Below, piece after piece: positions 7,226 to 63,530 of a stretch of DNA of 64,000 bases. Below the pieces are notes generated by a model. The model did not search any database, was not told the origin of the DNA, and saw only the letters and a program-made list of their open reading frames with translations. Position numbers and translations under genes: made by a program. The stretch lies in contig NZ_KE384056.1 of assembly GCF_000423585.1 (NCBI RefSeq), positions 107,845-171,844 of the forward strand, read 5' to 3'. Numbering within the stretch: position 1 is the stretch's first letter; each line of letters opens with the position of its first letter. Source of the DNA: Salinimicrobium xinjiangense DSM 19287 (GTDB taxonomy: Bacteria > Bacteroidota > Bacteroidia > Flavobacteriales > Flavobacteriaceae).

Positions 7226-7290
7226 CAGTAGGCAGTAAGCAGTATCCGGTACAATTTACTGAATACTGTTTACTGAAAACTGATTACTAC
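7226..7290 (+). repeat. Heptad-period inverted repeat between rpoB and rpoC
   Basis: Four 7-nt units beginning CAGT or CGGT (7226-7253) are followed by four units beginning ACTG (7258-7285). The second set is the reverse complement of the first in its core, so 7233-7245 pairs with 7263-7275 over 13 bp with one G-U pair, and CAGT 7226-7229 also pairs with ACTG 7279-7282. It is not followed by a T run. Confidence 0.85.
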
Positions 7291-7302
7291 ATAAAAAGTA
7301 TT

Positions 7303-10300
7303 ATGGCTAGAAATAATGATAAGAATACAGTACAGAGGTTCAACAAGATCTCTATAGGTTTGGCTTCTCCTGAGTCGATTCTTGCCGAATCACGCGGGGA
7401 GGTCTTAAAGCCTGAAACTATCAATTATCGTACGCACAAGCCCGAGAGGGACGGTCTTTTCTGCGAGCGCATCTTTGGTCCTGTAAAGGATTATGAATGT
7501 GCATGTGGAAAATACAAAAGGATCCGTTACAAGGGAATTGTGTGTGACAGATGTGGTGTAGAGGTGACTGAAAAGAAAGTGCGTAGAGATCGTGTAGGGC
7601 ATATCAACCTTGTGGTTCCTGTTGCACACATCTGGTACTTCCGTTCTTTACCTAACAAAATTGGTTACCTGCTTGGTCTTCCGTCTAAGAAATTAGACAT
7701 GATCATTTACTACGAAAGATACGTGGTAATTCAGCCGGGTATTGCCAAGAATGAAGATGGGTCTCCGTTGAAGAAAATGGATTTCCTAACTGAAGAAGAG
7801 TACCTGAACATATTGGATACCCTTCCGCAGGAAAACCTTTACCTGGATGAAAACGATCCAAACAAATTTATCGCTAAAATGGGTGCAGAGTGTCTTATCG
7901 ACATCCTGCAGCGTATTGATCTTGATGCACTTTCGTATGAATTAAGACATAAAGCGAACAACGAAACTTCAAAACAACGTAAAACTGAAGCTCTTAAAAG
8001 GCTTCAGGTTGTGGAAGCACTTCGTGATGCAAATAAAAACCGCGAGAACCGTCCGGAGTGGATGATTATGAAGGTAATTCCAATCATTCCGCCGGAATTG
8101 CGTCCATTGGTGCCGCTTGATGGAGGACGTTTCGCAACTTCAGACTTGAACGATCTTTACCGTCGTGTAATTATTCGTAACAACCGTTTGAAGCGTTTAA
8201 TGGAGATCAAAGCTCCTGAAGTAATTCTTCGTAACGAAAAGCGTATGCTACAGGAATCTGTGGATTCGTTATTCGATAACACCAGAAAATCTTCAGCAGT
8301 AAAAACCGATTCCAACAGGCCGTTGAAATCCCTTTCAGATTCCTTAAAAGGAAAACAGGGACGTTTCCGTCAAAACCTGCTTGGTAAGCGTGTGGATTAT
8401 TCGGCACGTTCGGTAATTGTTGTAGGACCGGAATTGAAGTTTTACGAGTGTGGTCTTCCAAAAGACATGGCAGCCGAGCTTTATAAACCTTTCGTGATAA
8501 GAAAACTTATCGAAAGAGGAATTGTAAAGACTGTGAAGTCTGCAAAGAAAATTATAGATAAGAAAGAACCTGTTGTTTGGGATATTCTCGAGAACGTGTT
8601 GAAAGGGCACCCTGTGTTGCTAAACCGGGCCCCAACCCTTCACAGACTTGGTATCCAGGCATTCCAGCCAAAACTTATTGAAGGTAAAGCGATCCAGTTG
8701 CACCCACTAGCGTGTACTGCATTCAACGCCGACTTTGATGGGGATCAAATGGCTGTTCACCTTCCGCTGGGACCAGAGGCTATTCTTGAGGCGCAGCTGT
8801 TGATGCTAGGTTCACATAACATTTTGAACCCTGCTAATGGTTCTCCTGTAACAGTACCTTCTCAGGATATGGTTTTGGGACTTTATTATATGACAAAGTC
8901 CAGAAAATCTACTCCCGAAGTGCCAATTAAAGGAGAAGGCCTTACTTTCTATTCAGCCGAAGAGGTAGTGATTGCCTATAACCAGAAAATGGTTGATCTT
9001 AACGCGATCATTAAAATTCGTGCTAAAGATTTCAACGAAGGAGGACATCTGGTAAATCAGATCATTGAGACTACAGTTGGTAGAGTTTTGTTTAACCAGG
9101 CCGTGCCGGAAAAAGCAGGTTTTGTGAACGAAGTTCTTACCAAGAAGTCTTTACGTGATATTATTGGAAATATCCTTAAGGTAACCAGTGTTCCTGAAAC
9201 TGCCGAATTCCTTGATGCTATTAAGGAAATGGGATATGGTTTCGCTTTCCGTGGAGGATTATCTTTCAGTTTGGGAGATATTATTATTCCGGAGGAGAAG
9301 CAATCCATGATCGATGATGCTAATGAGCAGGTAGAATCCATTATTGGAAACTACAACATGGGTCTTATTACAAACAACGAACGTTACAACCAGGTTATTG
9401 ATATCTGGACTTCTACGAACGCCGGCTTAACAGAATTAGCCATGAAGCGTATTCGTGAGGACCAGCAAGGATTTAACTCGGTGTACATGATGCTTGACTC
9501 GGGCGCGAGGGGATCTAAAGAACAGATCCGTCAGTTGACCGGAATGCGTGGTTTGATGGCGAAGCCTAAGAAATCAACCTCGGGTGGTGGTGAGATTATT
9601 GAGAACCCTATTCTTTCCAACTTTAAGGAAGGTCTTTCGATTCTTGAATACTTTATTTCTACTCACGGTGCACGTAAAGGTCTTGCCGATACGGCGCTTA
9701 AAACTGCCGATGCAGGTTACCTGACCCGTCGTCTTGTTGACGTTTCACAGGATGTGATCATCAACGAGGAAGACTGTGGAACATTAAGAGGTGTGGATGT
9801 TTCTCCATTGAAGAAGAACGAAGAGATCGTTGAATCTCTTGGTGAGCGAATTCTTGGTAGAACCGCACTTCATGATGTGTATAATCCATTGACTAACGAG
9901 CTGTTGGTAACTTCGGGGGTTGAGATTGACGAGGAGATCGTTAAAAAGATCACCGAGGCACCAATTGAGAGTGTTGAAGTAAGATCTGCGCTTACCTGTG
10001 AGGCGAAAAAAGGAATATGTGTGAAATGTTACGGCCGTAACCTGGCTACCAATAAAACGGTACAAAAAGGAGAAGCGGTTGGAGTTGTAGCTGCCCAGTC
10101 TATTGGAGAACCGGGAACACAGCTTACCCTTCGTACCTTCCACGTGGGTGGTATTGCAGGAAACATTTCTGAAGAAAATAAATTGATCGCGAAGTTCCCC
10201 GGAATTGCAGAGATCGAAGACCTTAAAACTGTTAAAGGAGAAGCTCCTGATGGTGGTGAGGCTGAGATCGTAATTTCCAGAACTTCCGAACTTAAACTGA

Positions 10301-11604
10301 AAGATGCCAAATCTGGAATTGTTCTTAGTACAAGTAACATTCCTTATGGATCGCAGATATTTATTAAGAACGGGGACAAGGTTGATAAAGACGAAGTGAT
10401 TTGTCAGTGGGATCCTTATAACGGGGTGATCATCTCAGAATTTGCCGGTAAGATCAGGTATGAGAATATTGAGCAAGGGGTGACTTATCAGGTAGAGATC
10501 GATGAGCAAACAGGATTCCAGGAAAAAGTTATTTCTGAATCACGTAACAAGAAGCTTATCCCAACTCTTCAGATCCTTGGTAAAAAAGACGAGGTAATTC
10601 GTTCTTATAACCTTCCTGTTGGAGCTCACCTTATGGTGGATAATGAGGATAAGATCAAGGTAGGTAAGATCCTGGTTAAGATTCCACGTAAGTCTTCCAA
10701 GTCGGGAGATATTACAGGAGGTCTTCCAAGGGTAACCGAGCTTTTCGAAGCCCGTAACCCATCTAACCCTGCTGTTGTAAGTGAGATTGACGGAGTTGTT
10801 TCCTTCGGAAAGATAAAGCGTGGTAACCGTGAGATCATTATTGAATCGAAACTTGGAGAAGTTAAGAAGTATCTTGTGAAACTTTCTAACCAGATCCTTG
10901 TTCAGGAAAATGACTATGTACGTGCGGGAATGCCGCTATCTGACGGGTCTGTAACTCCCGAAGATATCCTTTCAATTAAAGGACCAAGCGCTGTACAACA
11001 GTATCTTGTAAACGAAGTACAGGAAGTGTACCGACTGCAAGGAGTGAAGATCAATGATAAGCACTTCGAGGTAGTTGTGAGACAGATGATGCGTAAGGTA
11101 AGAATCGTCGATCCGGGAGATACCATATTCCTTGAGAATCAACTGGTACACAAGGATGATTTCATTATGGAAAATGATGAGATCTTCGGAATGAAAGTGA
11201 TTGAAGATGCTGGAGATTCAGAAAACCTGAAACCCGGGCAGCTTGTTAGTCCGCGTGAGTTGAGAGATGAGAACTCTATTCTTCGAAGAGAGGATAAGAA
11301 TCTTGCAACTGCGAGAGACGTGACCCCTGCAACGGCTACACCTGTACTACAGGGTATCACCAGGGCATCGCTACAAACCAAGTCGTTTATTTCTGCGGCA
11401 TCCTTCCAGGAAACTACGAAGGTACTCAATGAAGCAGCCGTAAGCGGTAAAGTGGATGAACTTGAAGGACTTAAAGAAAATGTTATTGTTGGACACAGAA
11501 TCCCTGCCGGTACAGGTCTAAGGGAGTACGAACATATCATTGTTGGTTCTAAAGAAGAATTTGACGAAATGCTTGAAAAAAAGCAGGAAGTTAATTATAA
11601 CTAG
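7303..11604 (+). CDS. rpoC: DNA-directed RNA polymerase subunit beta-prime
   Basis: This 1433-residue protein is the catalytic beta-prime subunit. The N-terminal zinc ribbon uses C66, C68, C81 and C84. The magnesium-binding NADFDGD motif has its aspartates at 477, 479 and 481. A second cysteine group ([11 protein letters not shown]) lies near residues 900-910, and the trigger-loop and bridge regions follow the standard order. It was presumably co-transcribed with rpoB and ends at a good intrinsic terminator. Confidence 0.98.
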
Positions 11605-11638
11605 AAGGATGCAATAGCACCTTCCTATGAAGAGAAGA

Positions 11639-11667
11639 ATCCCGACCATAACGGTCGGGATTTTTTT
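11639..11667 (+). terminator. Intrinsic terminator after rpoC
   Basis: A perfect 9-bp GC-rich stem (11639-11647 with 11653-11661) encloses a 5-nt loop and is followed by a run of T. It ends the rpl-rpo transcription unit. Confidence 0.92.
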
Positions 11668-11697
11668 GTACTTTTAAATTGAATTAAAAACATAATA

Positions 11698-12024
11698 ATG
11701 AGCGACGACAATAACAATCCTAAAAAGCAAAAAAAAGGACAGATCAATATAGAACTTGATGAAAAAGTAGCTGAAGGCACTTATTCGAACCTCGCAATAA
11801 TCAATCATTCTGTATCGGAATTTGTAGTTGATTTTGTTAGCATTATGCCCGGAACACCCAAGAGTAAGGTGAAATCGCGTATTATTTTAACTCCGCAACA
11901 TGCAAAGCGCTTATTAAAAGCTCTGGCAGATAATGTCAACAGGTTTGAAAAAGCACATGGTGAAATAAAGGAGTACGACCAGCCGAACATTCCCTTAAAT
12001 TTTGGTCCCACCGGGCAGGCATAA
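11698..12024 (+). CDS. DUF3467 family protein
   Basis: This 108-residue soluble protein matches DUF3467, a small family of unknown function common in Bacteroidota. The body contains the family-like NHSVSEFVVDFVSIMPG segment and a PQHAKRLLKAL helix, after a Lys/Asn-rich disordered N-terminus. There is no signal peptide or membrane span. It begins 31 nt after the rpoC terminator, so it may have its own promoter. No function can be assigned from sequence. Confidence 0.85.
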   Translation: MSDDNNNPKKQKKGQINIELDEKVAEGTYSNLAIINHSVSEFVVDFVSIMPGTPKSKVKSRIILTPQHAKRLLKALADNVNRFEKAHGEIKEYDQPNIPLNFGPTGQA

Positions 12025-12057
12025 ATTCTCTGGGTTATTTTTTTTAAGAATTAGGAT

Positions 12058-12106
12058 TAACGGGTATCTGGAAAAGAAAATCTCTTTTCGTGCCCGTTAC
12101 TTTTTT
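12058..12106 (+). terminator. Terminator-like hairpin after the DUF3467 gene
   Basis: TAACGGG (12058-12064) pairs with CCCGTTA (12093-12099), and GAAAAGA (12071-12077) pairs with TCTTTTC (12083-12089) inside it. A six-T run follows at once. It probably ends transcription of the DUF3467 gene. Confidence 0.7.
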
Positions 12107-12217
12107 GATGACCTCCCGTATTGCTTCTTTTTCAGAAAAGTTTAGTCTTAGTTTAAGATTATATAATTTCATATAAGACTTATTTTTAAGATTTTAAGAA
12201 GGCAAATCTGGTGAAGT

Positions 12218-13672
12218 ATGGCAGAAAAGCAACGAAGAAAAGATTTACCTGAAGCACCAAAAGGAAAAGACAGACTGAAATGGTATGGTCCCGGACTTTT
12301 GTGGATGATTTCGGCAGTTGGATCGGGTTCTGTTCTTTTTACGCCGAGGGTGGGCGCCCGTTATGGTTACGAATTTCTTTGGATGGCCCTTATCTTTATG
12401 TTCTTTATGTGGGTTATGATCCGGGAAGTGGGTAGATATACTGTAGTAACAGGGAATACAATTTTCGAAGGATACAGAGATATTTCCGGTTCCAGTAACT
12501 GGACACTCTATTTCATACTCATTCCCCAAATGGTTGCGGCTGTAGTAACCATTGCCGGGATAGCTGCTCTTGCAGGCAGTACCCTAATGATTGCAGTTCC
12601 ATGGGCCTATGAGATCTATGCCACGGGCCTTATCCTTCTTTGTTTGGTCCTGGTGATTACCGGCACCTATATTGTAATAGAAAGAGTAACTTCTGTCCTT
12701 GCTGCTCTACTGGTAACAGTGGTGATAGTAAGTGCTATAATGGTTTTTCCTGATTCATCTGACTTAATTTCTGGAATACTTCCATCTTTTCCTGAAGATA
12801 CAGACGTTGAGTTTGTCATCCCATGGGTAGGTTTTATTCTCGCGGGAGCCTCCGGAATCATGTGGTTCTCTTACTGGGTTTCAGCACGAGGCTACGGAGG
12901 TGATCTTACCGCTTTGGAAGATGTTAAAACCATCGAACCTAAAGAAAGAAAAAATGAATATAAATCGGCAAAAGAGGACTATAAGGAATTAAAGAGCTGG
13001 TTTTCCACCATGAGTGTTACGGCGGCCATTGGGGTAGTTGGAGGAGGTCTTATCCTCATCTCTTTTCTTATCCTGGGTACAGAACTGTTACGCCCGGAAG
13101 GTACTATTCCCGAAGGGATAACAGTAGCTGAAGATCTCACTAAACTTCTTTCGGGAATTTGGGGTGAGGCCGGTCGCTGGTTTTTGATCGTGGGCATCAT
13201 GATAGCCTTATTAGGAACCATTCTGTCCAACCAGGATGGCTATGGACGTATGTTTGCCGATGGAACGGTCATTCTTGCTATGCCATTTCTTAAGAAGAAG
13301 GAAATGATCGATCCCGAAATTCCCAGTGCTGCCGAGGAAGAAGCTGAACCTCTCGGGGAACAAAGTAAGTTCCGGAAGAAAACCACCAGTATTTTACTCA
13401 ATAAAAAATTGCTACGGCTCTTTTATGCCATTGTGTTTGGGGCTGTTCTACCTATCGCCGCCTTTTTTATGGTAAAAGATCCGGTGCATATCCTTAGCAT
13501 AGCAGGAACCATAGCCGCCGTACATACTCCTGTAGTGGTCTTTCTAACACTGCACCTCAACCGCACCAGGTTACCGGCACCAGTTAAACCAGGGAAGTTC
13601 ATCACCGGCGCAATGTGGTTGTCCGGAATTTCCTATGCGGCATTTGCAATTTATCATTTTACAACCTTATAA
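12218..13672 (+). CDS. Nramp-like divalent metal transporter, noncanonical
   Basis: This 484-residue membrane protein has the length and hydropathy of the Nramp (SLC11) fold, with GPGLLWMISAVGSG at the start of the first span and about ten to eleven spans. Canonical Nramp proteins carry DPGN in TM1 and MPH in TM6; here the DPGN site reads G35-S36-G37-S38, and the TM6 site reads WFSYWVSARGYGG (about 215-228) with no MPH. The metal-binding Asp, Asn and Met are therefore absent. A charged cytoplasmic loop lies at about 235-260. The ion carried cannot be inferred; it may be a distant Nramp branch with another substrate. Confidence 0.75.
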   Translation: MAEKQRRKDLPEAPKGKDRLKWYGPGLLWMISAVGSGSVLFTPRVGARYGYEFLWMALIFMFFMWVMIREVGRYTVVTGNTIFEGYRDISGSSNWTLYFILIPQMVAAVVTIAGIAALAGSTLMIAVPWAYEIYATGLILLCLVLVITGTYIVIERVTSVLAALLVTVVIVSAIMVFPDSSDLISGILPSFPEDTDVEFVIPWVGFILAGASGIMWFSYWVSARGYGGDLTALEDVKTIEPKERKNEYKSAKEDYKELKSWFSTMSVTAAIGVVGGGLILISFLILGTELLRPEGTIPEGITVAEDLTKLLSGIWGEAGRWFLIVGIMIALLGTILSNQDGYGRMFADGTVILAMPFLKKKEMIDPEIPSAAEEEAEPLGEQSKFRKKTTSILLNKKLLRLFYAIVFGAVLPIAAFFMVKDPVHILSIAGTIAAVHTPVVVFLTLHLNRTRLPAPVKPGKFITGAMWLSGISYAAFAIYHFTTL

Positions 13673-13815
13673 TTCAGGAATTCAATGAGGAAAGGCGAAG
13701 AAAATAGAGCTTTAAAATGGCCTTTGGATGTCTACTAAAAAAGCTCTAGCTTCTCCTTTGACTAAATTTTCTATATTTATCTTTTCCCTGCTAAACCTGT
13801 TCTTTAATTTAGTAA

Positions 13816-14246: not shown

Positions 14247-14287
14247 CCCTTCAGTAATTCTTCTTTATGCAAGCTTTATAGTTGTTC

Positions 14288-15625: not shown

Positions 15626-15634
15626 GATTAGAAA

Positions 15635-18810: not shown

Positions 18811-18840
18811 TTCAAAGTTCAAAATTCAAGGTTCAAAAAA
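18811..18840 (+). repeat. Short heptad tract (TTCAAAG type)
   Basis: TTCAAAG, TTCAAAA, TTCAAGG, TTCAAAA follow one another without gaps directly after the tRNA-Thr terminator. The same heptads recur at 28321 and 51323. Confidence 0.8.
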
Positions 18841-18940
18841 TTTCTTCCGCTTACTGCCGCCACTATTCACTGCGCGGTTCTTACCGTATCCTAATTAAGA
18901 ATTAGTTCCGGTTTTTCTGAAATTCTTTTTATTTTTTTAA

Positions 18941-18989
18941 TCTCAAATCTCAAATCTCAAATCTCAAATCTCAAATCTCATGTCTCAAA
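18941..18989 (+). repeat. Heptad tandem array (TCTCAAA)7
   Basis: Seven consecutive 7-nt units, six of them exactly TCTCAAA and one TCTCATG, end 3 nt before the mqo stop codon on the other strand. This is the cleanest heptad array in the window. Confidence 0.95.
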
Positions 18990-18991
18990 TC

Positions 18992-20497
18992 TTAATGAAG
19001 CACATCAAGTTTCAGAAGTTCTGAAGCTTCTGCCTGTACCTTTTTAAATTCAGTTTCGTAATTACGAATATCTCTGTTCCAAAAAGGGACCATTAGGTCA
19101 AGTTTTTTTTGCCATTGGGTGGAAGCCAGTTTTTCAGGAAAAACGATCTCAAGTACTTCCAGCATGATCTTCACCGAAACCGATGCTCCGGGAGAAGCCC
19201 CAAGCAGAGCTGTAATAGAACCATCCCTGCTGTTAATAACATCTGTCCCAAATTCAAGAACTCCACCTTGTTCCTGGTCCCTTTTTATGATCTGTACTCT
19301 TTGGCCCGCGACCTGCAGCTCCCAATCTTCAGGCTTTGCATCTTTTATAAAGATCCGCAGTTCTTCTATTCTGTCTTGATGGGTCATACTAACCTGTTCA
19401 ATGAGATATTTTGTAAGGTCCAGATTGTGCCAAAAAACTCCCCACATTGACGGAAGATTGCTTAGGTTGAGAGATCTTGGAAGGTCTGTTCTTGAACCTT
19501 CTTTAAGGAATTTTGTACTGAAGCCTGCAAAGGGACCAAACATCAATTCCTTCTTTCCGTCTATATAACGTGTGTCAAGATGAGGAACAGACATTGGAGG
19601 CGAACCCACTTCGGCTTTGCTGTACACTTTTCCAGAATGCTGCTTTATAAGTTCTTCGTTTTTACAGAATAACCACTGTCCGCTAATAGGAAATCCGCCG
19701 TAACCGTGTTTGGCATCAATTTCTACCCTTTGGAGCAGGGGCAGAGCACCACCTCCGGCACCTATAAATACATTTTTTGCATCATAATAGGTTTTATCCC
19801 CGGTATTAAGATCCTGTATTTCTGCCAGCCATTTGTCTTTGCGTCCCGGATCGATGTCCAGAACTTCATGTTCGAGAAGTACCGGAACATCGAAAGTTTC
19901 CCGAAGAATGGCAAAGATCTTTCGGGTTAAAGCTCCAAAGTTAACCCCTGTCCCTAGTTCCATTCTTGTAGCAGCCAGTTTTTCGTCTTTGGAACGTTCA
20001 TTCATGATCAAAGGAAACCAGGATTTCATTATGTCATGGTCCTCTGTATATTTCATGCTCTCAAACATAAAATGAGAGTTCATGGCTTCAAAACGATCTT
20101 TTAAAAATTTGACATTTTTTTCTCCGGGCACCCAGGCGTGATGTGGAATACTGTTGATGAATTCATCCGGATTATGAAGCATTCCGACCTTTACAAGATA
20201 TGACCAGAACTGCTTGGAAATTTCGAATTCCTCAAATATTCTTACGGCCTTAGAGGTATCAATGCTTCCATCTACTTTTCGGGGAGTATAATTCAGTTCG
20301 CAAAAAGCTGAATGTCCTGTACCCGCATTATTTTCTGCAGCCGAACTCTCCAGCGCAACTTCATCCAGTTTTTCAAAAATTACAATTTTGAGATCCGGTT
20401 CCAGGATTTTCAGCATAAGTGCCAGAGTTGCACTCATAATTCCTCCGCCGACGCATATAAAGTCATACTCCCTGTTAATCTCAAAATTCTTTTTCAT
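18992..20497 (-). CDS. mqo: Malate:quinone oxidoreductase
   Basis: This 501-residue FAD protein matches Mqo, the membrane-associated enzyme that oxidises malate to oxaloacetate and passes electrons to quinone. It has the dinucleotide-binding motif ICVGGGIMSATLA (about residues 14-26) and the ENNAGTGHSAFCELNYTP segment typical of the family. The start is the ATG at 20497 (MKKNFEINREYDF). It probably acts beside or instead of NAD-dependent malate dehydrogenase. A TCTCAAA array abuts its 3' end. Confidence 0.96.
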   Translation of the reverse strand: MKKNFEINREYDFICVGGGIMSATLALMLKILEPDLKIVIFEKLDEVALESSAAENNAGTGHSAFCELNYTPRKVDGSIDTSKAVRIFEEFEISKQFWSYLVKVGMLHNPDEFINSIPHHAWVPGEKNVKFLKDRFEAMNSHFMFESMKYTEDHDIMKSWFPLIMNERSKDEKLAATRMELGTGVNFGALTRKIFAILRETFDVPVLLEHEVLDIDPGRKDKWLAEIQDLNTGDKTYYDAKNVFIGAGGGALPLLQRVEIDAKHGYGGFPISGQWLFCKNEELIKQHSGKVYSKAEVGSPPMSVPHLDTRYIDGKKELMFGPFAGFSTKFLKEGSRTDLPRSLNLSNLPSMWGVFWHNLDLTKYLIEQVSMTHQDRIEELRIFIKDAKPEDWELQVAGQRVQIIKRDQEQGGVLEFGTDVINSRDGSITALLGASPGASVSVKIMLEVLEIVFPEKLASTQWQKKLDLMVPFWNRDIRNYETEFKKVQAEASELLKLDVLH

Positions 20498-28300: not shown

Positions 28301-28320
28301 CCGCCTTCGGCCGTCTTGGG

Positions 28321-28369
28321 TTCAAAGTTCAAAGTTCAAAGTTCAAGATTCAGGATTCAAGATTAAAGG
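28321..28369 (+). repeat. Heptad tandem array (TTCAAAG/TTCAAGA)
   Basis: Seven consecutive 7-nt units: TTCAAAG three times, then TTCAAGA, TTCAGGA, TTCAAGA, TTAAAGG. It lies 20 nt after the hybrid kinase stop. A looser heptad-like stretch (ACTTCTA type) follows to about 28425, before the shared terminator. Confidence 0.92.
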
Positions 28370-37059: not shown

Positions 37060-37087
37060 TTCAGGAAGCAAGAGACAAGAACCGCGA
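37060..37087 (+). repeat. Short degenerate heptad tract
   Basis: TTCAGGA, AGCAAGA, GACAAGA, ACCGCGA share the frame and pattern nnCAnGA, matching units at 28349 and 51337. It lies 9 nt after the FabH-like gene. Confidence 0.6.
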
Positions 37088-37114
37088 CAGATTTATATAA
37101 AGCCTTAAAAATGT

Positions 37115-42586: not shown

Positions 42587-43909
42587 ATGGCAAAGTTTGA
42601 GCTTAAGTTACCCAAGATGGGTGAAAGTGTTGCAGAAGCGACCATTACAAATTGGTTAAAGGAAGTGGGAGATACCATTGAAGCCGATGAGGCTATTCTT
42701 GAAATTGCTACCGATAAAGTGGACAGTGAAGTTCCCAGTGAAGTTGATGGGGTTTTGGTAGAAAAGCTTTTTAATGCAGATGATGTTGTACAGGTAGGCC
42801 AAACCATTGCTATTATTGAAACCGAAGGAGAAGGAGCAGTAGATGTGACGCCGGTGGCCGATCAACAGGTGCCTTCACCCGAGTTCGAAGAAGCTGTTGC
42901 TGCCGCAGAAAGCAGGGTGGAAGAAGCTAAAAGCATCAGTACTTCAGATTATGCCGACAGTAACAGGTTCTATTCTCCATTAGTAAAAAATATAGCCAAA
43001 GAAGAAGGAATTTCCTTTGAAGAACTGGAGCAGATCCAGGGATCTGGCAAAGAAGGAAGGGTGACTAAAAATGATATTTTAGGATACCTTGAAAACCGCT
43101 CTTCTCAACCTGCTTCGCAGGCACAACAGCCACAACAAACTCAACCTTCTCAACAACAGGCAGCACCACAACCTGCTAAAACTCCATTAAGCGTGAGCGG
43201 GGAAGATGAGATCATTGAAATGACCCGTATGGGAAAAATGATCGCCCATCACATGGTGGACAGTGTGCAAACCTCTGCTCACGTACAGTCTTTCATTGAG
43301 GTGGATGTGACCAACATCTGGAACTGGAGAAAGAAAAACAAAGATGCTTTCGAAAAGAGAGAAGGAGAGAAACTTACTTTTACTCCAATCTTTATGGAAG
43401 CCGTAGCCAAGGCGATAAAAGATTTTCCTTTGATCAACATTTCTGTTGACGGGGATAAGATCATTAAAAGAAAGAATATTAACCTTGGAATGGCAGCAGC
43501 CCTTCCTGATGGTAACCTTATTGTTCCGGTGATCAAAAATGCCGACCAGCTCAATCTGGTAGGAATGGCAAAAGCCGTGAACGACCTGGCGAACCGTGCA
43601 AGATTGAATAAGCTCAAACCCGATGATATACAGGGAGGAACCTATACGGTGACGAACGTGGGAACCTTTGGGAGCATCATGGGAACGCCGATTATTAATC
43701 AGCCGCAGGTAGGGATCCTTGCCCTTGGAGCTATTAGAAAAGTTCCGGCTGTTATTGAAACTCCCGAGGGAGATTTTATCGGTATCCGTTTCAAAATGTT
43801 CTTATCTCACAGTTATGACCACCGTGTGGTGAATGGAGCTCTGGGAGGTCAGTTTGTACAAAGAGTAGCACAATACCTGGAGAAATTTGATCCTAAGAGA
43901 GACCTTTAA
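42587..43909 (+). CDS. 2-oxoacid dehydrogenase E2 component (dihydrolipoyl acyltransferase)
   Basis: This 440-residue protein has one lipoyl domain (K44 in EIATDKVDSE), an E3/E1-binding domain (about 135-175; SPLVKNIAKEEGISFEELEQIQGSGKEG broken up by position), a Gln/Pro-rich linker (about 180-200) and a catalytic domain ending in the SHSYDHRVVNG motif. The sequence fits the branched-chain or 2-oxoglutarate type rather than pyruvate-type with several lipoyl domains. The E1 and E3 genes are not adjacent. Confidence 0.9.
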   Translation: MAKFELKLPKMGESVAEATITNWLKEVGDTIEADEAILEIATDKVDSEVPSEVDGVLVEKLFNADDVVQVGQTIAIIETEGEGAVDVTPVADQQVPSPEFEEAVAAAESRVEEAKSISTSDYADSNRFYSPLVKNIAKEEGISFEELEQIQGSGKEGRVTKNDILGYLENRSSQPASQAQQPQQTQPSQQQAAPQPAKTPLSVSGEDEIIEMTRMGKMIAHHMVDSVQTSAHVQSFIEVDVTNIWNWRKKNKDAFEKREGEKLTFTPIFMEAVAKAIKDFPLINISVDGDKIIKRKNINLGMAAALPDGNLIVPVIKNADQLNLVGMAKAVNDLANRARLNKLKPDDIQGGTYTVTNVGTFGSIMGTPIINQPQVGILALGAIRKVPAVIETPEGDFIGIRFKMFLSHSYDHRVVNGALGGQFVQRVAQYLEKFDPKRDL

Positions 43910-43930
43910 TCGGCATTATAAAATGTAAAC

Positions 43931-43960
43931 AAAACCACAGCATTTTCGCTGTGGTTTTTC
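43931..43960 (+). terminator. Terminator after the E2 gene
   Basis: AAAACCACAGC (43931-43941) pairs perfectly with GCTGTGGTTTT (43948-43958), then continues in T. Confidence 0.9.
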
Positions 43961-44136
43961 TTTTGCCATAGATTTTTTTGCCGCGAATTCACGAATAACT
44001 ACATGATCAGGGAGCAACAGAATTGTAAGACCTGATCTCTTTGTGTTCTTTATTTTTCTTTGTGGTCTCTGCGTGAAATAACATGGAATCTTAAATAAAT
44101 CCAATTCACAGACTTCTGAAACAGCAATTTCCCATC

Positions 44137-44202
44137 TGCCGTACCTACGGCACTCTAACCCGAACTGTCACTCCTTCTACCAATCTATCGTTCCTACGGA
44201 AC
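44137..44202 (+). repeat. Bipartite hairpin element, copy A
   Basis: Hairpin 1 is TGCCGTA-CC-TACGGCA (44137-44152); hairpin 2 is GTTCC-TAC-GGAAC (44190-44202). Both share the CCTACGG core. The linker before hairpin 2 contains TTCTACCAATCTATC, similar to the linker of copy B at 51948. Confidence 0.7.
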
Positions 44203-44320
44203 TTATATTCCTACGCTCTTAAACCCTTACTACTTCTACTTCCTCCTGATTCTTTTTTCCTGACTTCGGGAGCAAAGCGTCTTTTTTCACACTGCCTGCT
44301 TAAAACTACGTAATGCCCAC

Positions 44321-44358
44321 TTCTGATTCTGACCACTGATCACTGACCACTGACCACT
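44321..44358 (+). repeat. Heptad tandem array (ACTGACC)
   Basis: TTCTGAT, TCTGACC, ACTGATC, ACTGACC, ACTGACC, ACT follow in one 7-nt frame. It lies 38 nt before the exonuclease ATG. Confidence 0.9.
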
Positions 44359-44395
44359 ACTTTTACTATCTTTACCAAAACTGAATGATATTGTA

Positions 44396-51317: not shown

Positions 51318-51322
51318 AAGTA

Positions 51323-51357
51323 TTCAAGATTTAAAATTCAGGATTCAAAATTAGTGT
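51323..51357 (+). repeat. Heptad tract (TTCAAGA/TTCAGGA)
   Basis: TTCAAGA, TTTAAAA, TTCAGGA, TTCAAAA, TTAGTGT run in one 7-nt frame, starting 6 nt after the cinA stop. A related stretch AGAATCA, AGGATCA, AGATTTT follows near 51390. Confidence 0.85.
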
Positions 51358-56007: not shown

Positions 56008-56010
56008 TTT

Positions 56011-56289: not shown

Positions 56290-56311
56290 GAATTCATTTT
56301 GTGCAAAATAT

Positions 56312-57015: not shown

Positions 57016-57091
57016 ATTTATCTGGTTCATTTCAAATGAAATTCCCCGCTAATATATCAAATGCCTCAGTCCAATTTATAACCACCCAAAA

Positions 57092-57820
57092 ATGAAAAAT
57101 AATTTACTCCTGCTTATTATCCTGATGACCACTTTTTCAGGTTTTTCCCAGAAACTGTACAAAGCAGTAGAAAAGGAAAACCTCTCAAAAGTTGAAAAAC
57201 TTCTGGCTAAAGGAGAAGATCCAAATGAATTCAGTGAAAATGGTCTTTTCCCTTTATGGAGAGCAACAGCCGATAACAGTTATGAAATAGCAGCATTACT
57301 CATTAAAAATGGAGCAGATGTCAATCTCGAAAATAAAGTTCCTCCTGGAAATTCCACTCCCATTATTCTCCCATGTCAGGAAGGGTATACCGAAATTGTC
57401 AGGCTTTTGGTGGAGAGTGGAGCAGATGTGAATTATGAAGGCTTCAGAGGATTTACTCCAATAAGAATAGCAGCAAGAAACGGCCATATCGAAATAGTAA
57501 AGTATTTGGCCGAAAAAGGTGCTGATATTGACAAAAAAGCCATGGACGGAGCAACCCCTTTAGAACATGCGGCATCTGTAGGTCATTATGAAATTGTAAA
57601 GTTTTTGATTGAACAGGGTGCCGATGTTAATAATGTTGATGAAGAAGGTGACTTCCCGGTTGGAGAAGCAGCGAGATATGGGCATACTGCTATAGTAAAG
57701 TTGTTGATCGAAAATGGAGCAAATCTAACGCTAAAAAACAAAGAAAATAAGTCCGCGTATGATCTGGCCCTGGAAACAGGTCAAACAGAAGCAGCCGATT
57801 TAATTAAGGTTCATTTGTAA
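57092..57820 (+). CDS. Secreted ankyrin-repeat protein
   Basis: This 242-residue protein has a signal peptide (about 1-19, ending GFSQ) and about six ankyrin repeats covering residues 25-240. Repeats such as GFTPIRIAARNGHIEIVKYL and GATPLEHAASVGHYEIVKFL show the family G-x-TPLxxAA-x-xGHxEIVKxLL pattern. It is expected in the periplasm as a protein-binding scaffold. It lies between the secreted helical protein and a frameshifted lipoprotein gene. Confidence 0.9.
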   Translation: MKNNLLLLIILMTTFSGFSQKLYKAVEKENLSKVEKLLAKGEDPNEFSENGLFPLWRATADNSYEIAALLIKNGADVNLENKVPPGNSTPIILPCQEGYTEIVRLLVESGADVNYEGFRGFTPIRIAARNGHIEIVKYLAEKGADIDKKAMDGATPLEHAASVGHYEIVKFLIEQGADVNNVDEEGDFPVGEAARYGHTAIVKLLIENGANLTLKNKENKSAYDLALETGQTEAADLIKVHL

Positions 57821-57900
57821 AATATGTTGGAAGCATTTTTTAATAGCAGTGAGTGAATCAAAGCGAATTTCAGGAAACCCTGTTTACTAAACCGTTCGAA

Positions 57901-58454
57901 ATGAAAAAGATCCTGTTTTTTCTTCTATTGATGCTTTCTGGTTGCGCAATGAAGAAAACCTTTGACAAGACCGATATTCATACCTATTATCCAATAGGTT
58001 CAGAAAATTCTACTTTCAATTATACTGATTCCAATGCTTTTGTGAACCACAAGGACATTTCACGTACAAAGCAAATCAATGGAAAAAGCTATAGTACCCG
58101 AATTATAGAATATTCCTGGGGTAAAAAAGTAGAAACTTTTTATAGAATTGAAAACGGTAGTGTTCTTTACTATGATACAAAATCAGAAACCGAAAATTTA
58201 ATTATGCCAAAAAATCCGACGGTCGGTTATACATGGGTAAATTCGGACCAATCGTGGGAATATGAAATAGTTGAGCTTAACGGTGAATTGGAAACACCGG
58301 AAAGAAATATTCAGGTTTGTTAGTTATGAAAGCTCGTCAATTAAAAAACAGAGATGAGACAAAGTTGACCGAATACCTTAATTATTACCAGCGAAACGTG
58401 GGTAAAGTTGCAAGTTTCGGGAATGGTGAATTAATGACTTATAGAGCATATTAG
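57901..58454 (+). pseudogene. Lipoprotein gene split by a frameshift
   Basis: The first part (57901-58323, 140 codons) has a lipoprotein signal (MKKILFFLLLMLSGC, C15) and a beta-rich body. It stops at TAG 58321-58323. In the -1 frame (codons in register with 58323) the reading continues with GLLVMKARQLKNRDETKLTEY and ends FGNGELMTYRAY at TAG 58452-58454, a clearly protein-like tail. One missing base near 58311-58322, most simply one G in CAGGTTTG, would give a single protein of about 184 residues. It could be a real mutation or a sequencing error. A longer upstream start at GTG 57853 is not needed because the signal peptide starts at 57901. Confidence 0.75.
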
Positions 58455-58476
58455 AAAGCAGTCAAAAATTTAAATA

Positions 58477-59391
58477 TTGAGAAAAATTTTGCTTTTAGTT
58501 TTCCTGGCACTAATCGGTGCAAAACTATCCAATGCACAGGAATTAAAATTAAATCTGTTAATCAATGAGTCGTACTATCACAACAACACGACACATGTAA
58601 AGATGACTCAGGATATTCAGGGAGAATTATCTGTGACAGATGCTATCTACGGCGGGAAAATGCGTTTTAAGGTAAAAGAAAAAACAGATTCATTATATCG
58701 CCTTGAAATATACTTTCAGACTGTGCACTTTTCAGCAAGTATGGGTGATACTACATTTTCGGCAGATACTGAAAAAACAGATTCCCTGAGTGTCTTCGAC
58801 CTGATCATGAAAGAAATGACCAAATCACCCTTTGAGGCATCTATTTCCGAATATGGTATAGTTAAAGATGTTGAAATGGAAAATCTTTTTGACAACTTGC
58901 TAGGTCTGGATTTGGATATTCCCAAACTTGATCAGGCTCATGCTGTATATACTTTGAAACAGACCTTTGGAGAAAAAGCTATGAAAGGTTCACTTGAAAT
59001 GTTTACAGCAATATATCCAAAAGGGCCGGTCACAGTCGGTGATGTCTGGAATAATACAATCAGGCTTGAAACCATCTCCGGCGTAACCTTAAACAACCAG
59101 TTTGAGCTTCTGGAGAGGGATCAAAACCAAACAATAATTAAAATAAATTCTGAAACTGTATCTGATAAAAATGAGTCATTTACAGAAATGAATGGAGAGT
59201 TTTTCAGGATTAGTTCAAACGGAAATATGGTAGCAACCTATATTCTGGATTCTGAAACCGGCTGGATCATAGAATCTGAAATTGTCCAGGAAATAACAGG
59301 ATTAAATGAAAAAAAATGGAGAGAGGATTCAGCTATTATAATTAAGATCCCTTTTACATATGAGGGCTTAATTAAACTGGAATCTGATTAA
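58477..59391 (+). CDS. Secreted DUF6263-like protein
   Basis: This 304-residue protein starts at a TTG (TTGAGAAAAA, like the hybrid kinase gene), which yields a signal peptide (about 1-20, ending NAQ). The mature part is a beta-rich domain with repeated strands and segments such as SEYGIVKDVE and YPKGPVTVGDVWN. It resembles DUF6263, though I hold the family name loosely. Function unknown. It follows the broken lipoprotein gene by 22 nt. Confidence 0.75.
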   Translation: MRKILLLVFLALIGAKLSNAQELKLNLLINESYYHNNTTHVKMTQDIQGELSVTDAIYGGKMRFKVKEKTDSLYRLEIYFQTVHFSASMGDTTFSADTEKTDSLSVFDLIMKEMTKSPFEASISEYGIVKDVEMENLFDNLLGLDLDIPKLDQAHAVYTLKQTFGEKAMKGSLEMFTAIYPKGPVTVGDVWNNTIRLETISGVTLNNQFELLERDQNQTIIKINSETVSDKNESFTEMNGEFFRISSNGNMVATYILDSETGWIIESEIVQEITGLNEKKWREDSAIIIKIPFTYEGLIKLESD

Positions 59392-59439
59392 ACAGCTCAA
59401 AAGTTTAGCTACTTAAGAACCTAAAAAAATTAAAGATAT

Positions 59440-59712
59440 ATGGGCGGCGAAGGAAGTATGTCTCAGGCGAACCAGAGCCTTAAATACAACAGGGGACAAC
59501 TGGGCAAGAGAAAATTCAGAGATATAAAAGACCTGATAAGATCTCAATCGGGTAAGACTAAAATCGAATTTGATAAGATTGATCCTCAGGAGTTAAAAAG
59601 AATTAAAGAAGAGATCAGGCTTAAAGCTAAGAAAGAAAAAAGGAAGTTAATATTGGCTTTCATCCTATCGGTTATTCTCACAGCCGCATTTTTCACCTTA
59701 ATTTTACTTTAA
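59440..59712 (+). CDS. Small tail-anchored membrane protein, unknown
   Basis: This 90-residue protein has a polar, Lys-rich N-terminus and helix (about 20-66) and one C-terminal membrane span (about 69-90). The start MGGEGSMSQANQSLKYNRG looks like a conserved flavobacterial N-terminus. It may be tail-anchored. Function unknown. Confidence 0.75.
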   Translation: MGGEGSMSQANQSLKYNRGQLGKRKFRDIKDLIRSQSGKTKIEFDKIDPQELKRIKEEIRLKAKKEKRKLILAFILSVILTAAFFTLILL

Positions 59713-59805
59713 AATCAGAATAAACAGACTTCTTCCTTAGCTACTCTTCACCTGTTTTTTCTTCTCCCAATTACTTATATTTAAACCTTCCAAAATTCAG
59801 ATTTC

Positions 59806-62800
59806 ATGAAAAGATTTTTCCTGGCAATTTTTATTGCCATTTTTTCAACTTCAGTGACTGCGCAGGAGGCGGCGCACTGGCTGCGTTTTCCAAGTATTTC
59901 CCCTGACGGGAATACCATTATTTTCAGCTACATGGGTAACCTGTATCGGGTGGCTCAAAATGGCGGTACAGCCGTGCCCATTACTACCGGAGATGCCTAT
60001 GATGGCTGGCCGGTATGGAGCAACGATGGGAAAACCATTGCCTTTGCCAGCGACCGTTACGGGAATTTTGACGTCTTCACCATGCCCGCCACGGGTGGTG
60101 CACCGGTAAGACTGACATTTAACAGCACAGATGACCTGCCATACGATTTCACTGCAGAGGATGCAAAAGTGCTCTTTGGCAGTGGTCGTAATGCACCGGC
60201 AGAAAGTGTAAGATTTCCGAGCCCGGGACTATTTAAAAACCTTTATACCATTCCTGTAAAAGGAGGAAGACCACTACTACTTACCGCAGCCGGGGCCGAT
60301 GATGCGAACTTCAGCAAAGACGGTTCTCAACTGGTTTTTGAAGACCGCAAAGGCTATGAAGACGACCTGAGAAAGCACCATACTTCTTCGGTCACCAGGG
60401 ACATCTGGTTGTTCGATATTAATAATAACACCTATAAACAACTCAGCAGTTTTGAAGGTGAAAACAGGGAGCCTGTTTTTAGTGCAGATGCTTCCGCAGT
60501 ATTTTATCTAAACGAAAAGAGCGGCACACAAAACCTTTATAAAATGTCACTTTCGGGAGGTAATGAAGAGCAGCTAACACAATTCGAGGATTTTCCGGTT
60601 AGGCATTTGACAATCTCAGATGATAATAAACTCGCGTTTTCCTGGAAGGGAGACATCTACACCTTGAGTCCGGGCGCAAAGGCTCAGAAGGTGGAGGTAA
60701 AGGTGATGAGTGATTCGGGTTATGAGCCTGTGAAGAATATGGATATCAATTCTGTTACAGAATTTGCGGTGTCTCCAAATAATAAAGAGATCGCCTTCGT
60801 GAACCGCGGAGAAGTGTTCGTAACCGGTGTGGATGATTCCCGTACTAAAAGGGTCACTAATACTCCGGAGCAGGAAAGGATGATCAGCTGGTCTGAAGAC
60901 GGAAAGACCTTGTTGTTTTCCGGTGAAAGAGAGGGCAGCTGGAATGTGTATAAAGTTACTCTGTCACGTCCCGAAGAGCAATATTTCTATGCCTCTACAG
61001 TGCTTAAATCTGAACCTGTAATTGCTACGGAAGCAGAAGAATTTCAGCCGAAATATTCGCCCGATGGGAAGAAAATCGCTTTTATAGAAGAAAGGAACAT
61101 CCTGAAAGTGCTTGACCTTGATTCCGGGAAGAAATCCACTGTTCATCCTGAAGGCAGAAACTACTCCTACAGTGATGGGGACTGGTCGTACAGTTGGAGC
61201 CCAGACAGCCGCTGGTTGCTTATTGATGATCAAAAAGGCTACTTTTTCAACAACAATGTGGCTTTAATTAAAGCAGACGGATCTGGTGAGATCTTCCATC
61301 CAATAAACAGCGGGTTTGGTGAGTCCAACGCTAAATGGGCAATGGACGGAAAAATGATGACCTACGAGAGCAGCAAGGAAGGAAGAAAATCTCTGGCACT
61401 TCAAGGCAGCAGGGAAGTGGATATCTACGGGGTTTTCTTTGATCAGGAAGCTTACGATAAGTTCAAACTGAGCAAGGAAGAATTTGAGCTACTAACTACC
61501 AAAGAGAAAAAGGAGAAAGAAGAGGAGGAGAAGAAAGCAAAGGAAGAGGAAGAAAAAAAACCCAAAAAGAAAAAAGAGAAGCCTGAAGATAAAAAGCCGC
61601 TCGTACTGAATCTCGACAATCTGGAGTACCGTAGAGAGAAGTTGACCATCAACAGTGCCAGTATCAGCGATTATGTGCTCAACAAGGACGCCAGCAAAGT
61701 CTATTATCTGGCATCTTTTGAAAAGGGCTATGACCTTTGGGTGACAGAGCCGCGTACGAGAGACACAAAGATCCTTGCGAAATTGGGTGGCTCTCCTAGT
61801 GGTATTGAGATCAGTGAAGATGACAAGACTATATTTTTGAGCAACAACGGAAAGCTTGTTAAGGTTGATGCAGAAAGTGGTGAAGTGAAGAATATTACCA
61901 TTGCCGGAGATATGCTGGTGGATGCCGAAGCCGAAAGAAAATATATGTTCGACCATATATGGCGGCAGGTCAAGAAGAAATTCTATGACCCTGAATTGCA
62001 CGGTGTGGATTGGGAGATGTATAAGGAAGAGTATTCGAAGTTCCTGCCTTACATCAATAACAACTATGACTATCAGCAGCTGCTGAGTGAGATGTTGGGC
62101 GAACTCAATGCCTCTCATACCGGTGGCAGATACCGTCCCGAGAATAACGGACTCAAATCTGCTGCTCTTGGTTTGCTTTTCGACGAAAAGTACTCCGGCG
62201 AGGGAATAAAGATTTCTGAAGTACTTGCGGGAGGACCCTTAGATAAGGCCACTTCCAAAGTAAAGGCAGGCGATGTAATTGTGAAGATCAATGGAGAGGA
62301 AATTGCTGCCAATGACAACTGGAACAAATACCTCCTGGGTCTCAATGACAAGAATACACTACTTACAATTAAGAGAGGAAATAGCACTTTCGATGAGAAA
62401 GTGCAGCCGTTTTCTACCGGAGAGGAGAGCCAGTTAATGTACAGAAGATGGGTTAATATGATGGAGGAGATGGTAGACTCTTTGAGTAACGGGCAACTGG
62501 GTTACCTTCACATCCGCGGAATGAACGACAGCAGCTTCAGGGATGTGTATGAAAATGCCCTCGGAAGAAATATTGACAAAAAAGCCCTGGTAGTAGATAC
62601 CAGATTCAACGGCGGCGGATGGTTGCATGATGATCTCAACACCTTCCTTAGCGGAAAAGAATATCTGAAGTTCGCCCCACAGGGCAATGTGGTGAAAGGC
62701 GGAGAGCCGATGGCCAGGTGGACCAAACCGAGTATTGTGGTGATGGGAGAAGGGAATTACAGTGATGCTTTTATTTTTCCTTATGTCTACAAACAAAATG

Positions 62801-63054
62801 ACCTGGGGAAACTTGTCGGAATGCCCGTTCCCGGCACCGGAACCGCAGTTTGGTGGGAAAGACAAATTGATCCTACCATCGTCTTCGGAATTCCCATGGT
62901 AGCCACAATTGGCGCTGAAGGAAGACCTACAGAAAACCTGCAGCTGGAACCGGATATCATGGTACCATTGCCTTACAATGATTTTCTTAATGGAAAGGAT
63001 CCACAGATTGAAACCGCAGTGCGGGAGTTGGAAAAGGAATTAGCACAGGAATAG
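59806..63054 (+). CDS. Tricorn-like S41 family peptidase, secreted
   Basis: This 1082-residue protein has a signal peptide (about 1-19), two beta-propeller regions (about 25-330 and 335-560) of TolB/PD40-like repeats (SPDGNTI, SNDGKTI, SPDGKKI), a Lys/Glu-rich segment (about 564-600), a tricorn C1-like region, a PDZ domain (about 785-865) and an S41 core with S986 (EGNYSDAF). The order matches the bacterial tricorn protease. The family degrades oligopeptides. Here the mature protein is exported, so it should act in the periplasm. Confidence 0.92.
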   Translation: MKRFFLAIFIAIFSTSVTAQEAAHWLRFPSISPDGNTIIFSYMGNLYRVAQNGGTAVPITTGDAYDGWPVWSNDGKTIAFASDRYGNFDVFTMPATGGAPVRLTFNSTDDLPYDFTAEDAKVLFGSGRNAPAESVRFPSPGLFKNLYTIPVKGGRPLLLTAAGADDANFSKDGSQLVFEDRKGYEDDLRKHHTSSVTRDIWLFDINNNTYKQLSSFEGENREPVFSADASAVFYLNEKSGTQNLYKMSLSGGNEEQLTQFEDFPVRHLTISDDNKLAFSWKGDIYTLSPGAKAQKVEVKVMSDSGYEPVKNMDINSVTEFAVSPNNKEIAFVNRGEVFVTGVDDSRTKRVTNTPEQERMISWSEDGKTLLFSGEREGSWNVYKVTLSRPEEQYFYASTVLKSEPVIATEAEEFQPKYSPDGKKIAFIEERNILKVLDLDSGKKSTVHPEGRNYSYSDGDWSYSWSPDSRWLLIDDQKGYFFNNNVALIKADGSGEIFHPINSGFGESNAKWAMDGKMMTYESSKEGRKSLALQGSREVDIYGVFFDQEAYDKFKLSKEEFELLTTKEKKEKEEEEKKAKEEEEKKPKKKKEKPEDKKPLVLNLDNLEYRREKLTINSASISDYVLNKDASKVYYLASFEKGYDLWVTEPRTRDTKILAKLGGSPSGIEISEDDKTIFLSNNGKLVKVDAESGEVKNITIAGDMLVDAEAERKYMFDHIWRQVKKKFYDPELHGVDWEMYKEEYSKFLPYINNNYDYQQLLSEMLGELNASHTGGRYRPENNGLKSAALGLLFDEKYSGEGIKISEVLAGGPLDKATSKVKAGDVIVKINGEEIAANDNWNKYLLGLNDKNTLLTIKRGNSTFDEKVQPFSTGEESQLMYRRWVNMMEEMVDSLSNGQLGYLHIRGMNDSSFRDVYENALGRNIDKKALVVDTRFNGGGWLHDDLNTFLSGKEYLKFAPQGNVVKGGEPMARWTKPSIVVMGEGNYSDAFIFPYVYKQNDLGKLVGMPVPGTGTAVWWERQIDPTIVFGIPMVATIGAEGRPTENLQLEPDIMVPLPYNDFLNGKDPQIETAVRELEKELAQE

Positions 63055-63113
63055 TTTTCAAATAATTTCTAAACTGGAAAATAGCCTTTCGTTAATTCGA
63101 AGGGCTTTTTTTA

Positions 63114-63190
63114 AAGTCTAAGGTCTGAGGTCTAAGGTTTAAAATTGAAGGTTTCCGGGTTCCAGGTTCCAGGTTTCCAGCTTCAATTTT
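63114..63190 (+). repeat. Heptad array, 11 units, closing in an inverted repeat
   Basis: Eleven 7-nt units run without a break (AAGTCTA, AGGTCTG, AGGTCTA, AGGTTTA, AAATTGA, AGGTTTC, CGGGTTC, CAGGTTC, CAGGTTT, CCAGCTT, CAATTTT). AAAATTGAAG (63141-63150) is the exact reverse complement of CTTCAATTTT (63181-63190). Confidence 0.92.
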
Positions 63191-63229
63191 GAATAATCTC
63201 TTTGCGCTAAAGCTTTGCGGCCTTTGCGA

Positions 63230-63530
63230 GAAACCTTTTTAATTGTATAATGTATATTGAATATTGTATAATTTATTAGTAAAAAAGGGGTTGGTGAGTT
63301 CTTTTGAAATAATAGAAGTTGCAGCAAATTGAGTAGTCCTTTCTTTGTGCTCTTAATTTTTAACTTTTTTTGCTTTGTGTGAAACCTTTTTTAATTGTAT
63401 AATGTATATTGAATATGGTATAAGTTATCAGTAAAAAAGGGGATTGGAGAGTTCTTTTGAAATTTTAGGTTGCAGCAATGGAGTAACCATTTCTTCGTGC
63501 TCTTAAGTTTTTGCTTTGTTTGCTTCATGT
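63230..63530 (+). repeat. Tandem imperfect duplication of ~150 bp
   Basis: GAAACCTTTTTAATTGTATA begins copy 1 (63230-63380) and GAAACCTTTTTTAATTGTAT begins copy 2 (63381-63530). Shared landmarks are AATGTATATTGAATAT, GTAAAAAAGGGG, GAGTTCTTTTGAAAT, GTTGCAGCAA and CGTGCTCTTAA/TGTGCTCTTAA. A third GAAACCTT starts at 63531. Inside copy 1 the units GTATAAT, GTATATT, GAATATT, GTATAAT also have a 7-nt period. Confidence 0.85.

Follow-up and report, generated by a model that had tools for sequence, protein, structure and literature searches.

Intergenic heptamer tracts of Salinimicrobium xinjiangense and their possible kinship with elements encoding a 23S rRNA-intervening sequence protein

The DNA considered here, called the window below, is a stretch of 64,000 nucleotides (nt) of Salinimicrobium xinjiangense DSM 19287 (contig NZ_KE384056.1, positions 107,845 to 171,844) whose intergenic regions carry short arrays of imperfect repeats with a 7-nt step. 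The first of these heptamer tracts, on the forward strand at 7226..7288, is a hairpin devoid of any open reading frame (ORF), with arms of the form CAGTAAG... and ...TTTACTG, lying in the 86-nt spacer between rpoB and rpoC. A solo TTCAAAG tract with a 7-nt step (18811..18837) precedes an AATCTCA tract (18939..18992, reverse strand), which abuts the stop codon of a gene on the minus strand and, read in the sense of that gene, is rich in G. A GTTCAAA tract has a stop codon 19 nt upstream (28320..28368, forward strand), and a weak, probably decayed tract also lies behind a stop (37060..37090, forward strand); the junction of the latter was found in four relatives, two of which (G005 and G008) have clean AAGAGTC-type tracts there. 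The CTGACCA tract at 44329..44358, C-rich on the forward strand and 37 nt 5' of the next forward gene, resembles the 3' arms described below. The spacer around it (43905-44395) is a mosaic of CTTTGTG/CTCTGCGTGAAA words and CGTTCCTACGGAAC-type palindromes, the same junction being only 113 nt long in G005 and G008. A ATTCAAGATTCAGG tract (51322..51352) has a stop codon 4 nt upstream. Finally, a mosaic tract made of AAGGTCT and then AGGTTCC units (63112..63194, forward strand) stands behind a terminator-like hairpin, and two near-identical TGTATAA tracts, 152 nt apart, share one spacer (63244..63276 and 63396..63432, both forward), the second having been retrieved by a local detector.

A preliminary description of the window had named nine tracts as gapless heptamers of unrelated words. 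By Tandem Repeats Finder and direct inspection, eight of the nine have a lag-7 identity of 0.62-0.91, whereas the tract at 37060, with 0.50, falls below the threshold. The absence of gaps is not strict, two rows within 63149-63184 containing 7% and 15% indels. The words do differ at a constant step, but TTCAAAG-type words recur in three tracts, hence not all are unrelated. The tract at 7226 has the period ascribed to it but actually consists of two inverted halves, those of the rpoB-rpoC hairpin, and the tract at 63396-63432 had been missed. The location outside genes was supported, as was the view that the tracts do not descend from one repeat.

The 7-nt period is real. Match fractions per lag in the 8.8 kb of intergenic DNA of the window were compared with 100 dinucleotide shuffles, giving z = 4.2 at lag 7, 4.3 at lag 14 and 3.1 at lag 21, and at most 2.1 at all remaining lags from 4 to 25. 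The same genome was sampled outside the window as 20 stretches of 20 kb (L111-L130, 58.7 kb intergenic), of which L111-L116 adjoin the window and the other 14 are a non-random choice from eight other contigs; gene ends were taken from our own ORF caller (at least 100 amino acids), not from curated annotation. Exact runs of at least 9 in the intergenic DNA of this sample numbered 19 at lag 7, 32 at lag 14 and 15 at lag 21, against 0-4 at the remaining lags from 4 to 30, a lag-7 shuffle mean of 0.8 and a single lag-7 run in coding DNA. Lags 7, 14 and 21 consequently stand above other lags, shuffles and coding DNA alike, as the preliminary description had supposed for lag 7. The local detector, applied to window and sample, retrieved 51 lag-7 segments, whereas lags 4-6 and 8-13 gave 1-6 and one shuffle gave none at lag 7. 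Lag-7 runs were also raised in 18 congener stretches (7 versus 0.2 in shuffles), 29 Flavobacteriales loci (12 versus 2.4) and 51 other Bacteroidota loci (12 versus 0.8). With a tandem 7-nt step above chance and an intergenic location, the tracts belong to the heptanucleotide simple sequence repeats described in Bacteroidetes, Cyanobacteria, Beggiatoaceae and Xanthomonas (PMC4679880, PMC4692102), so that the earlier statement that no named family covers them does not hold. Exact runs at lag 14 outnumber those at lag 7 in the sample (32 versus 19), the window (7 versus 4) and the congeners (12 versus 7), which looks like alternate units being more similar; this excess is absent from the other Bacteroidota loci.

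Within the 464 kb of window and sample, 57 tracts were classed as free, six of which, lacking both neighbour genes, were excluded from orientation tests. The remaining 51 fall in 30 spacers, tracts of the same spacer not being independent. None lies in a divergent spacer, though 22% of the bases are found there (p 4e-6), and convergent spacers are favoured (28 of 51, p 5e-6). The proximity to stop codons put forward earlier was borne out: 18 of the 51 are at most 9 nt from a stop, where 3.4 are expected and the maximum over 2000 random placements was 10. On the sense strand G exceeds C near 3' ends, by 12:1 in convergent spacers within 60 nt and by 12:2 behind upstream stops, with no such bias ahead of starts (3:4). 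When each spacer contributes a single tract no more than 60 nt from a stop, G exceeds C in 19 cases, falls below it in 2 and equals it in 3. Free tracts of congeners behave similarly (polarity 21:4; 20 of 46 at most 9 nt from a stop), as do those at rpoB loci of other Bacteroidota (polarity 7:2; 10 of 26 close to a stop). These placements bear on the idea, proposed for TAACTGA in Beggiatoaceae, that such repeats are translation-control sites located 5' of start codons. TAACTGA-like units do occur in the sample (L129, 18075), but the 28 tracts of convergent spacers have no downstream start, of the 23 tracts in co-directional spacers 16 lie closer to the upstream stop, and only 7 of all 51 are nearer a downstream start. 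The position just upstream of starts that characterizes the Beggiatoaceae network is not the one found here, which makes this explanation extremely improbable.

The lead to a partner protein came from another rpoB-rpoC spacer (L106, 480 nt), in which inverted heptamer arms surround an ORF of 115 amino acids matching PF05635, the 23S rRNA-intervening sequence protein (IVP). S. xinjiangense itself has 12 matches to PF05635 above cut-off (23S_rRNA_IVP/four-helix-bundle), one of them with an internal stop, and the family is present in 157 of 198 sampled Bacteroidota genomes; no PF05635 match was obtained in 14 control genomes. A lag-7 tract lies within 150 nt of 10 of the 12 IVP genes of S. xinjiangense and on both sides of 7 of them, while among 355 control genes a tract was found on the left of 22, on the right of 21 and on both sides of one. 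We gathered 109 IVP loci, chiefly best-scoring matches and not a random draw, and removed L179 and L182; since the genus cross-element control was inflated by orthologues, a non-redundant set of 72 of the remaining 107 was used instead (12 from this genome, 21 from the genus, 39 from the phylum). A lag-7 or lag-8 tract occurs at 66 of these 72 loci (lag 7 at 52, both sides at 31), each of lags 4-6 and 9-12 at no more than 4.

Inverted arms were sought by locally aligning the upstream flank to the reverse-complemented downstream flank; a score of at least 11 was reached at 59 of the 72 IVP loci versus 20 of the 355 control genes. The words of the arms vary among elements (CTAGAGT, CAGTGTT, GGTTTAA, GAGTTAT, TTAGAAG, TGTATAA and others) but match inside one element: in a ranking of 72, the true 3' arm came first in 28 cases and within the top three in 48. 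The 5' arm has more G than C at 50 of 59 loci, equal amounts at 4 and the reverse at 5. Two further candidate features were discarded. A conserved AG core is explained by base composition, AG being the commonest recurring dinucleotide (43 of 67 arms), and a unit number matching a pentamer was dropped, the detection threshold excluding tracts shorter than the commonest 4-5 units.

The same design occurs on plasmids. A tblastn search found IVP genes in 41 plasmid records, 35 of them cyanobacterial (Nostoc 14, Calothrix 4). Among the 18 records examined, which are mostly cyanobacterial and two of which (L305 and L314) have nearly identical arms, a lag-7 or lag-8 tract is present in all, and inverted arms exceed the maximum of 50 shuffles in 15, with a G-rich 5' arm in 14 of these 15; no convincing inverted arms were seen at L304, L315 and L317. 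Loci from Azospirillum (7 nt) and Gemmatirosa (8 nt) plasmids show the same pattern. In Pseudanabaena and Anabaena, plasmid IVP genes sit between cas6 and cas4 (L300, L303), and on a Nostoc edaphicum plasmid (L301) the IVP gene lies antisense between ribonucleotide reductase genes. Additionally, in both strains of Flavobacterium columnare a gene for a four helix bundle protein was recorded between the guanylate kinase and nicotinate nucleotide adenylyltransferase genes and classed among phage elements (PMC5524665, Table 5).

For heptanucleotide repeats, Mrazek 2007 proposed polymerase slippage and found that in most genomes no other long simple repeat is as abundant (both as reported in PMC4679880, the former also in PMC4692102). 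Plain replication slippage would take the step of about 7 bp for the grip of DNA polymerase, let heptamers persist under weak selection and have IVP genes merely sit among them. Such a process accounts for the differing words, the imperfect copies and the absence of IVP remnants beside free tracts; Cyanothece strains have been described as differing by 7-nt indels (PMC4679880). Yet it gives no reason for one gene family to be enclosed by matching inverted arms (59 of 72 versus 20 of 355), nor for the sense-strand polarity (19:2), the abutting of stops (18 of 51 versus 3.4) or the 8-nt arms around other IVPs, and we consider it unlikely.

Four junctions holding an IVP gene in S. xinjiangense (J1-J4) were traced through 12 genomes of the genus. 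Upstream genes were assigned by Pfam as SRP (ffh) at J2, ATP synthase alpha/beta at J3 and glutamine amidotransferase at J4; the genes at these junctions are those that we take to be atpA, atpG, folD, hisH and hisA. The J1 gene was found in 11 genomes, all 11 with an IVP, in lineages 33-57% identical and with arms of CTAGAGT (4), TGTATAA (3), GAGATTT (2) or GAGTATT (2). At J2 the IVP is present in 9 of 12 genomes and absent from 3. J3 holds an IVP in 6 of 12, TATTGAG/CTCAATA tracts without IVP in 3, a short form in one and neither in 2, the two tracts that were folded forming hairpins (z -5.1 and -5.4). At J4 an IVP is again present in 6 of 12; 4 genomes lack it but have heptamer tracts with other words, and in 2 no tract was found. 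Between the same genes, relatives have a full IVP element, heptamer hairpins that lack an ORF, a single arm, or nothing of the kind. Across 117 same-junction pairs, word similarity tracks IVP identity (rho 0.90): words are shared by all 46 pairs above 75% IVP identity and by 5 of 51 below 60%. Consequently, arms and ORF are inherited and replaced together at a given junction, and the words change fast. Concerted change at nine thiolase-linked IVPs was also considered and rejected, their own 3' arm ranking 1-4 of 9 because near relatives share words.

The rpoB-rpoC spacer was followed in 80 Bacteroidota loci, both gene ends being found in 76, of which 8 contain a lag-7 segment of various words. 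Within the genus, a hairpin is present in 11 of 11 genomes. Five carry the CAGT heptamer type and the other 6 an unrelated type, which is a strong hairpin directly behind rpoB (L004, L005, L006, L009, L011, L012). In the heptamer type 98.1% of stem cells are paired, and its 5 sequences show no two-sided changes, five one-sided changes that all lead to wobble pairs, and two broken cells. Inspected by eye, the arms of the rpoB-rpoC hairpins of L103 and L098 seem to repeat at 8 nt (GAATGAGT, TTTCGGAC). A hairpin of two unrelated kinds in all 11 spacers, together with the preservation of wobble pairs by all five one-sided changes, is what one would expect of selected RNA elements of intercistronic regions or 3' untranslated regions (UTRs), acting in stability or processing or in a terminator-like manner independently of IVP, with IVP genes captured between two of them; polarity and placement at stop codons fit this explanation too. 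A 3' UTR element that arose independently behind the IVP gene should, however, be G-rich in sense; the observed 3' arm is instead rich in C and corresponds to the 5' arm of the same element. IVP cassettes and words also change together at one junction, and we hold RNA elements independent of IVP to be decidedly unlikely.

Free tracts and IVP arms share a vocabulary. Heptamers of free tracts occur in the arms of the 12 IVP loci of S. xinjiangense at 52%, versus 15% with unit columns permuted, and in those of congeneric loci at 66% versus 28%; with IVPs of other genera there is no sharing (27% versus 29%). Seven of ten window tracts have heptamers in common with the IVP arms of their own genome, the shares at six of them being 65% at 18811..18837, 51% at 28320..28368, 100% at 44329..44358, 14% at 63112..63194, 85% at 63244..63276 and 61% at 63396..63432. 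Placement and polarity of the free tracts are those of the 5' arm of an IVP element. On balance, and with considerable reservation, we favour the view that the window tracts are ORF-less or solo arms of intercistronic elements resembling the intervening sequences (IVSs) of 23S rRNA. It draws on the tracts themselves, their association with IVP genes, the inverted arms, arm-to-arm matching, polarity, placement at stops, shared vocabulary and presence or absence at orthologous junctions, all of which are observed; the partner family PF05635, the two-arm inverted design and the strand polarity go beyond the preliminary description. A complete element would follow a stop codon and precede the next gene, often within an operon. 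It would consist of a G-rich arm containing a few imperfect heptamers, then a PF05635 (IVP/S23/four-helix-bundle) ORF and finally a complementary C-rich arm, so that its transcript could fold back into a long stem whose loop holds the ORF. Forms without an ORF would be bare hairpins, such as that between rpoB and rpoC in the window, or single arms behind stops. The window would contain only such forms: no IVP homologue was found in it, and none of its tracts has an IVP ORF between arms.

Several results weigh against this view. No IVP homologue, whole or broken, was found in the 464 kb holding the 57 free tracts, and an inverted partner exists in just 4 of the 30 tract-bearing spacers, most having single arms. 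Three of the ten window tracts, those at 18939..18992 and 51322..51352 among them, have no heptamer in the IVP arms of the genome. Polarity over all distances in convergent spacers is only 16:9, and at the 29 Flavobacteriales rpoB loci it is 3:1, with just 2 of 26 tracts at most 9 nt from a stop. At the IVP loci of the phylum set, the density of lag-7 tracts close to the IVP (9 in 3126 intergenic bases) is only about threefold that found elsewhere (8 in 9405). Free-tract density bears no clear relation to IVP number across 10 other genomes: four without IVP have 1 free tract in 26.7 kb of intergenic DNA, one with a single IVP has 0 in 5.2 kb, and among five with 10-15 IVPs there are 6 in 36.9 kb, of which G044 alone accounts for five; the IVP-rich G114, G076 and G135 have no free tract in 4.8-9.1 kb of intergenic DNA each. 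Between different junctions there is no clear link of words to IVP identity (rho 0.05, p 0.09), although 46% of 26 pairs at 50-60% identity have some words in common. A Nostoc plasmid has a lag-7 peak (10 versus 1) with 5 of 14 tracts in divergent spacers and no polarity. Finally, IVP arms have no G.U excess (38 G.U versus 55 A.C, about equal by composition), so that an RNA wobble signature was rejected and RNA-level selection on those arms is unsupported. In view of these contrary results our confidence is limited, and the step from belonging to the same class to being derived from or made by IVP elements is taken as no more than plausible.

Free tracts may descend from IVP elements or be made by them, and an IVP oligomer may bind one unit per subunit, which would fix the step at 7 (sometimes 8) nt and let the word drift. 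Slippage and hairpin-templated correction may keep units and arms similar, and the stem may be cut from the mRNA, as RNase III cuts IVSs from rRNA. TRAP, which reads evenly spaced triplets, offers a parallel for such a ring. Each of the solved relatives, 2gsc and 2rld, contains five chains, and the title of the 2gsc paper, as given in a reference list, speaks of five four-helix bundles; we infer, short of proof, that a ring of this kind reads evenly spaced units, which would explain the constant step and the free word. A broader proposal, which is speculative and which we put forward only tentatively, is that a single superfamily of hairpin elements, organised around IVP rings, has as its arms the heptamer repeats of Bacteroidota and Cyanobacteria, and perhaps those of Beggiatoaceae and Xanthomonas. 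The ring would read one 7- or 8-nt unit per subunit and so keep the spacing constant, both arms of a cassette would carry a word particular to it, and single arms would be its footprints in 3' UTRs.

Intergenic repeats of heptanucleotides are a long-standing observation, for which slippage is the proposal reported (PMC4679880, PMC4692102). If the favoured view is true, this repeat class gains a partner protein and a polarity, and an orphan protein family, for which the literature searched gave no role, gains a likely substrate. IVS elements would then be more than an rRNA curiosity, standing also among the genes of operons such as those for ATP synthase and histidine synthesis and, in one lineage, of rpoBC. 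The repeats themselves are known; a partner protein for them may be new apart from one rRNA case, that of Coxiella, the only link of heptamers to IVP found in a search that mostly left out subscription papers, where such a link may exist in print.

Among known systems, long simple sequence repeats and short tandemly repeated repetitive sequences of heptanucleotides share with our tracts the 7-nt step, intergenic location and imperfect copies. They include TAACTGA in Beggiatoaceae, Cyanobacteria and five Bacteroidetes (MacGregor 2015, PMC4679880), GGGAATC in Xanthomonas, GGGGA(T/C)T (as GGGGATT) in Nostoc and the Calothrix heptamers cited by Rehm 2015 (PMC4692102), and heptamer-derived families appear in Subirana-type satellite work (PMC6749651). 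Mixed heptamers in Bacteroidetes are already on record in this literature, the accessible parts of which mention no partner gene, two-arm IVP design or stop-codon polarity (PMC4679880, PMC4692102). Avd of the diversity-generating retroelements belongs to a related four-helix-bundle family with a weak profile match, and PF05635 has been termed Avd-like (PMC10053308), which would suit templated synthesis of the tracts by a reverse transcriptase or primase-polymerase together with IVP, after the manner of Avd and its reverse transcriptase. All four IVPs tested nevertheless score 20.8-32.9 bits against an Avd model cut-off of 80 and cannot be counted as Avd, making templated synthesis quite improbable. 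In the case of REP sequences with RAYT transposases, short inverted repeats flank a gene and are also present on their own between genes. The elements described here share this arrangement but have another protein, and their words differ among elements of one genome. The 23S rRNA IVS with an S23/IVP ORF has an inverted-repeat stem with the ORF in its loop, and that of Coxiella also has tandem heptamers upstream of the ORF, with an RNase III site at the first repeat (PMC4990558). Our elements possess both the ORF (at the 12 loci of S. xinjiangense) and the stem around it (59 of 72 loci; 15 of 18 on plasmids). Unlike the rRNA elements, those with an identified upstream gene (J2-J4 and L106) sit between protein genes and not inside 23S rRNA, their words vary among elements, they have ORF-less and single-arm forms, and their excision is only proposed.

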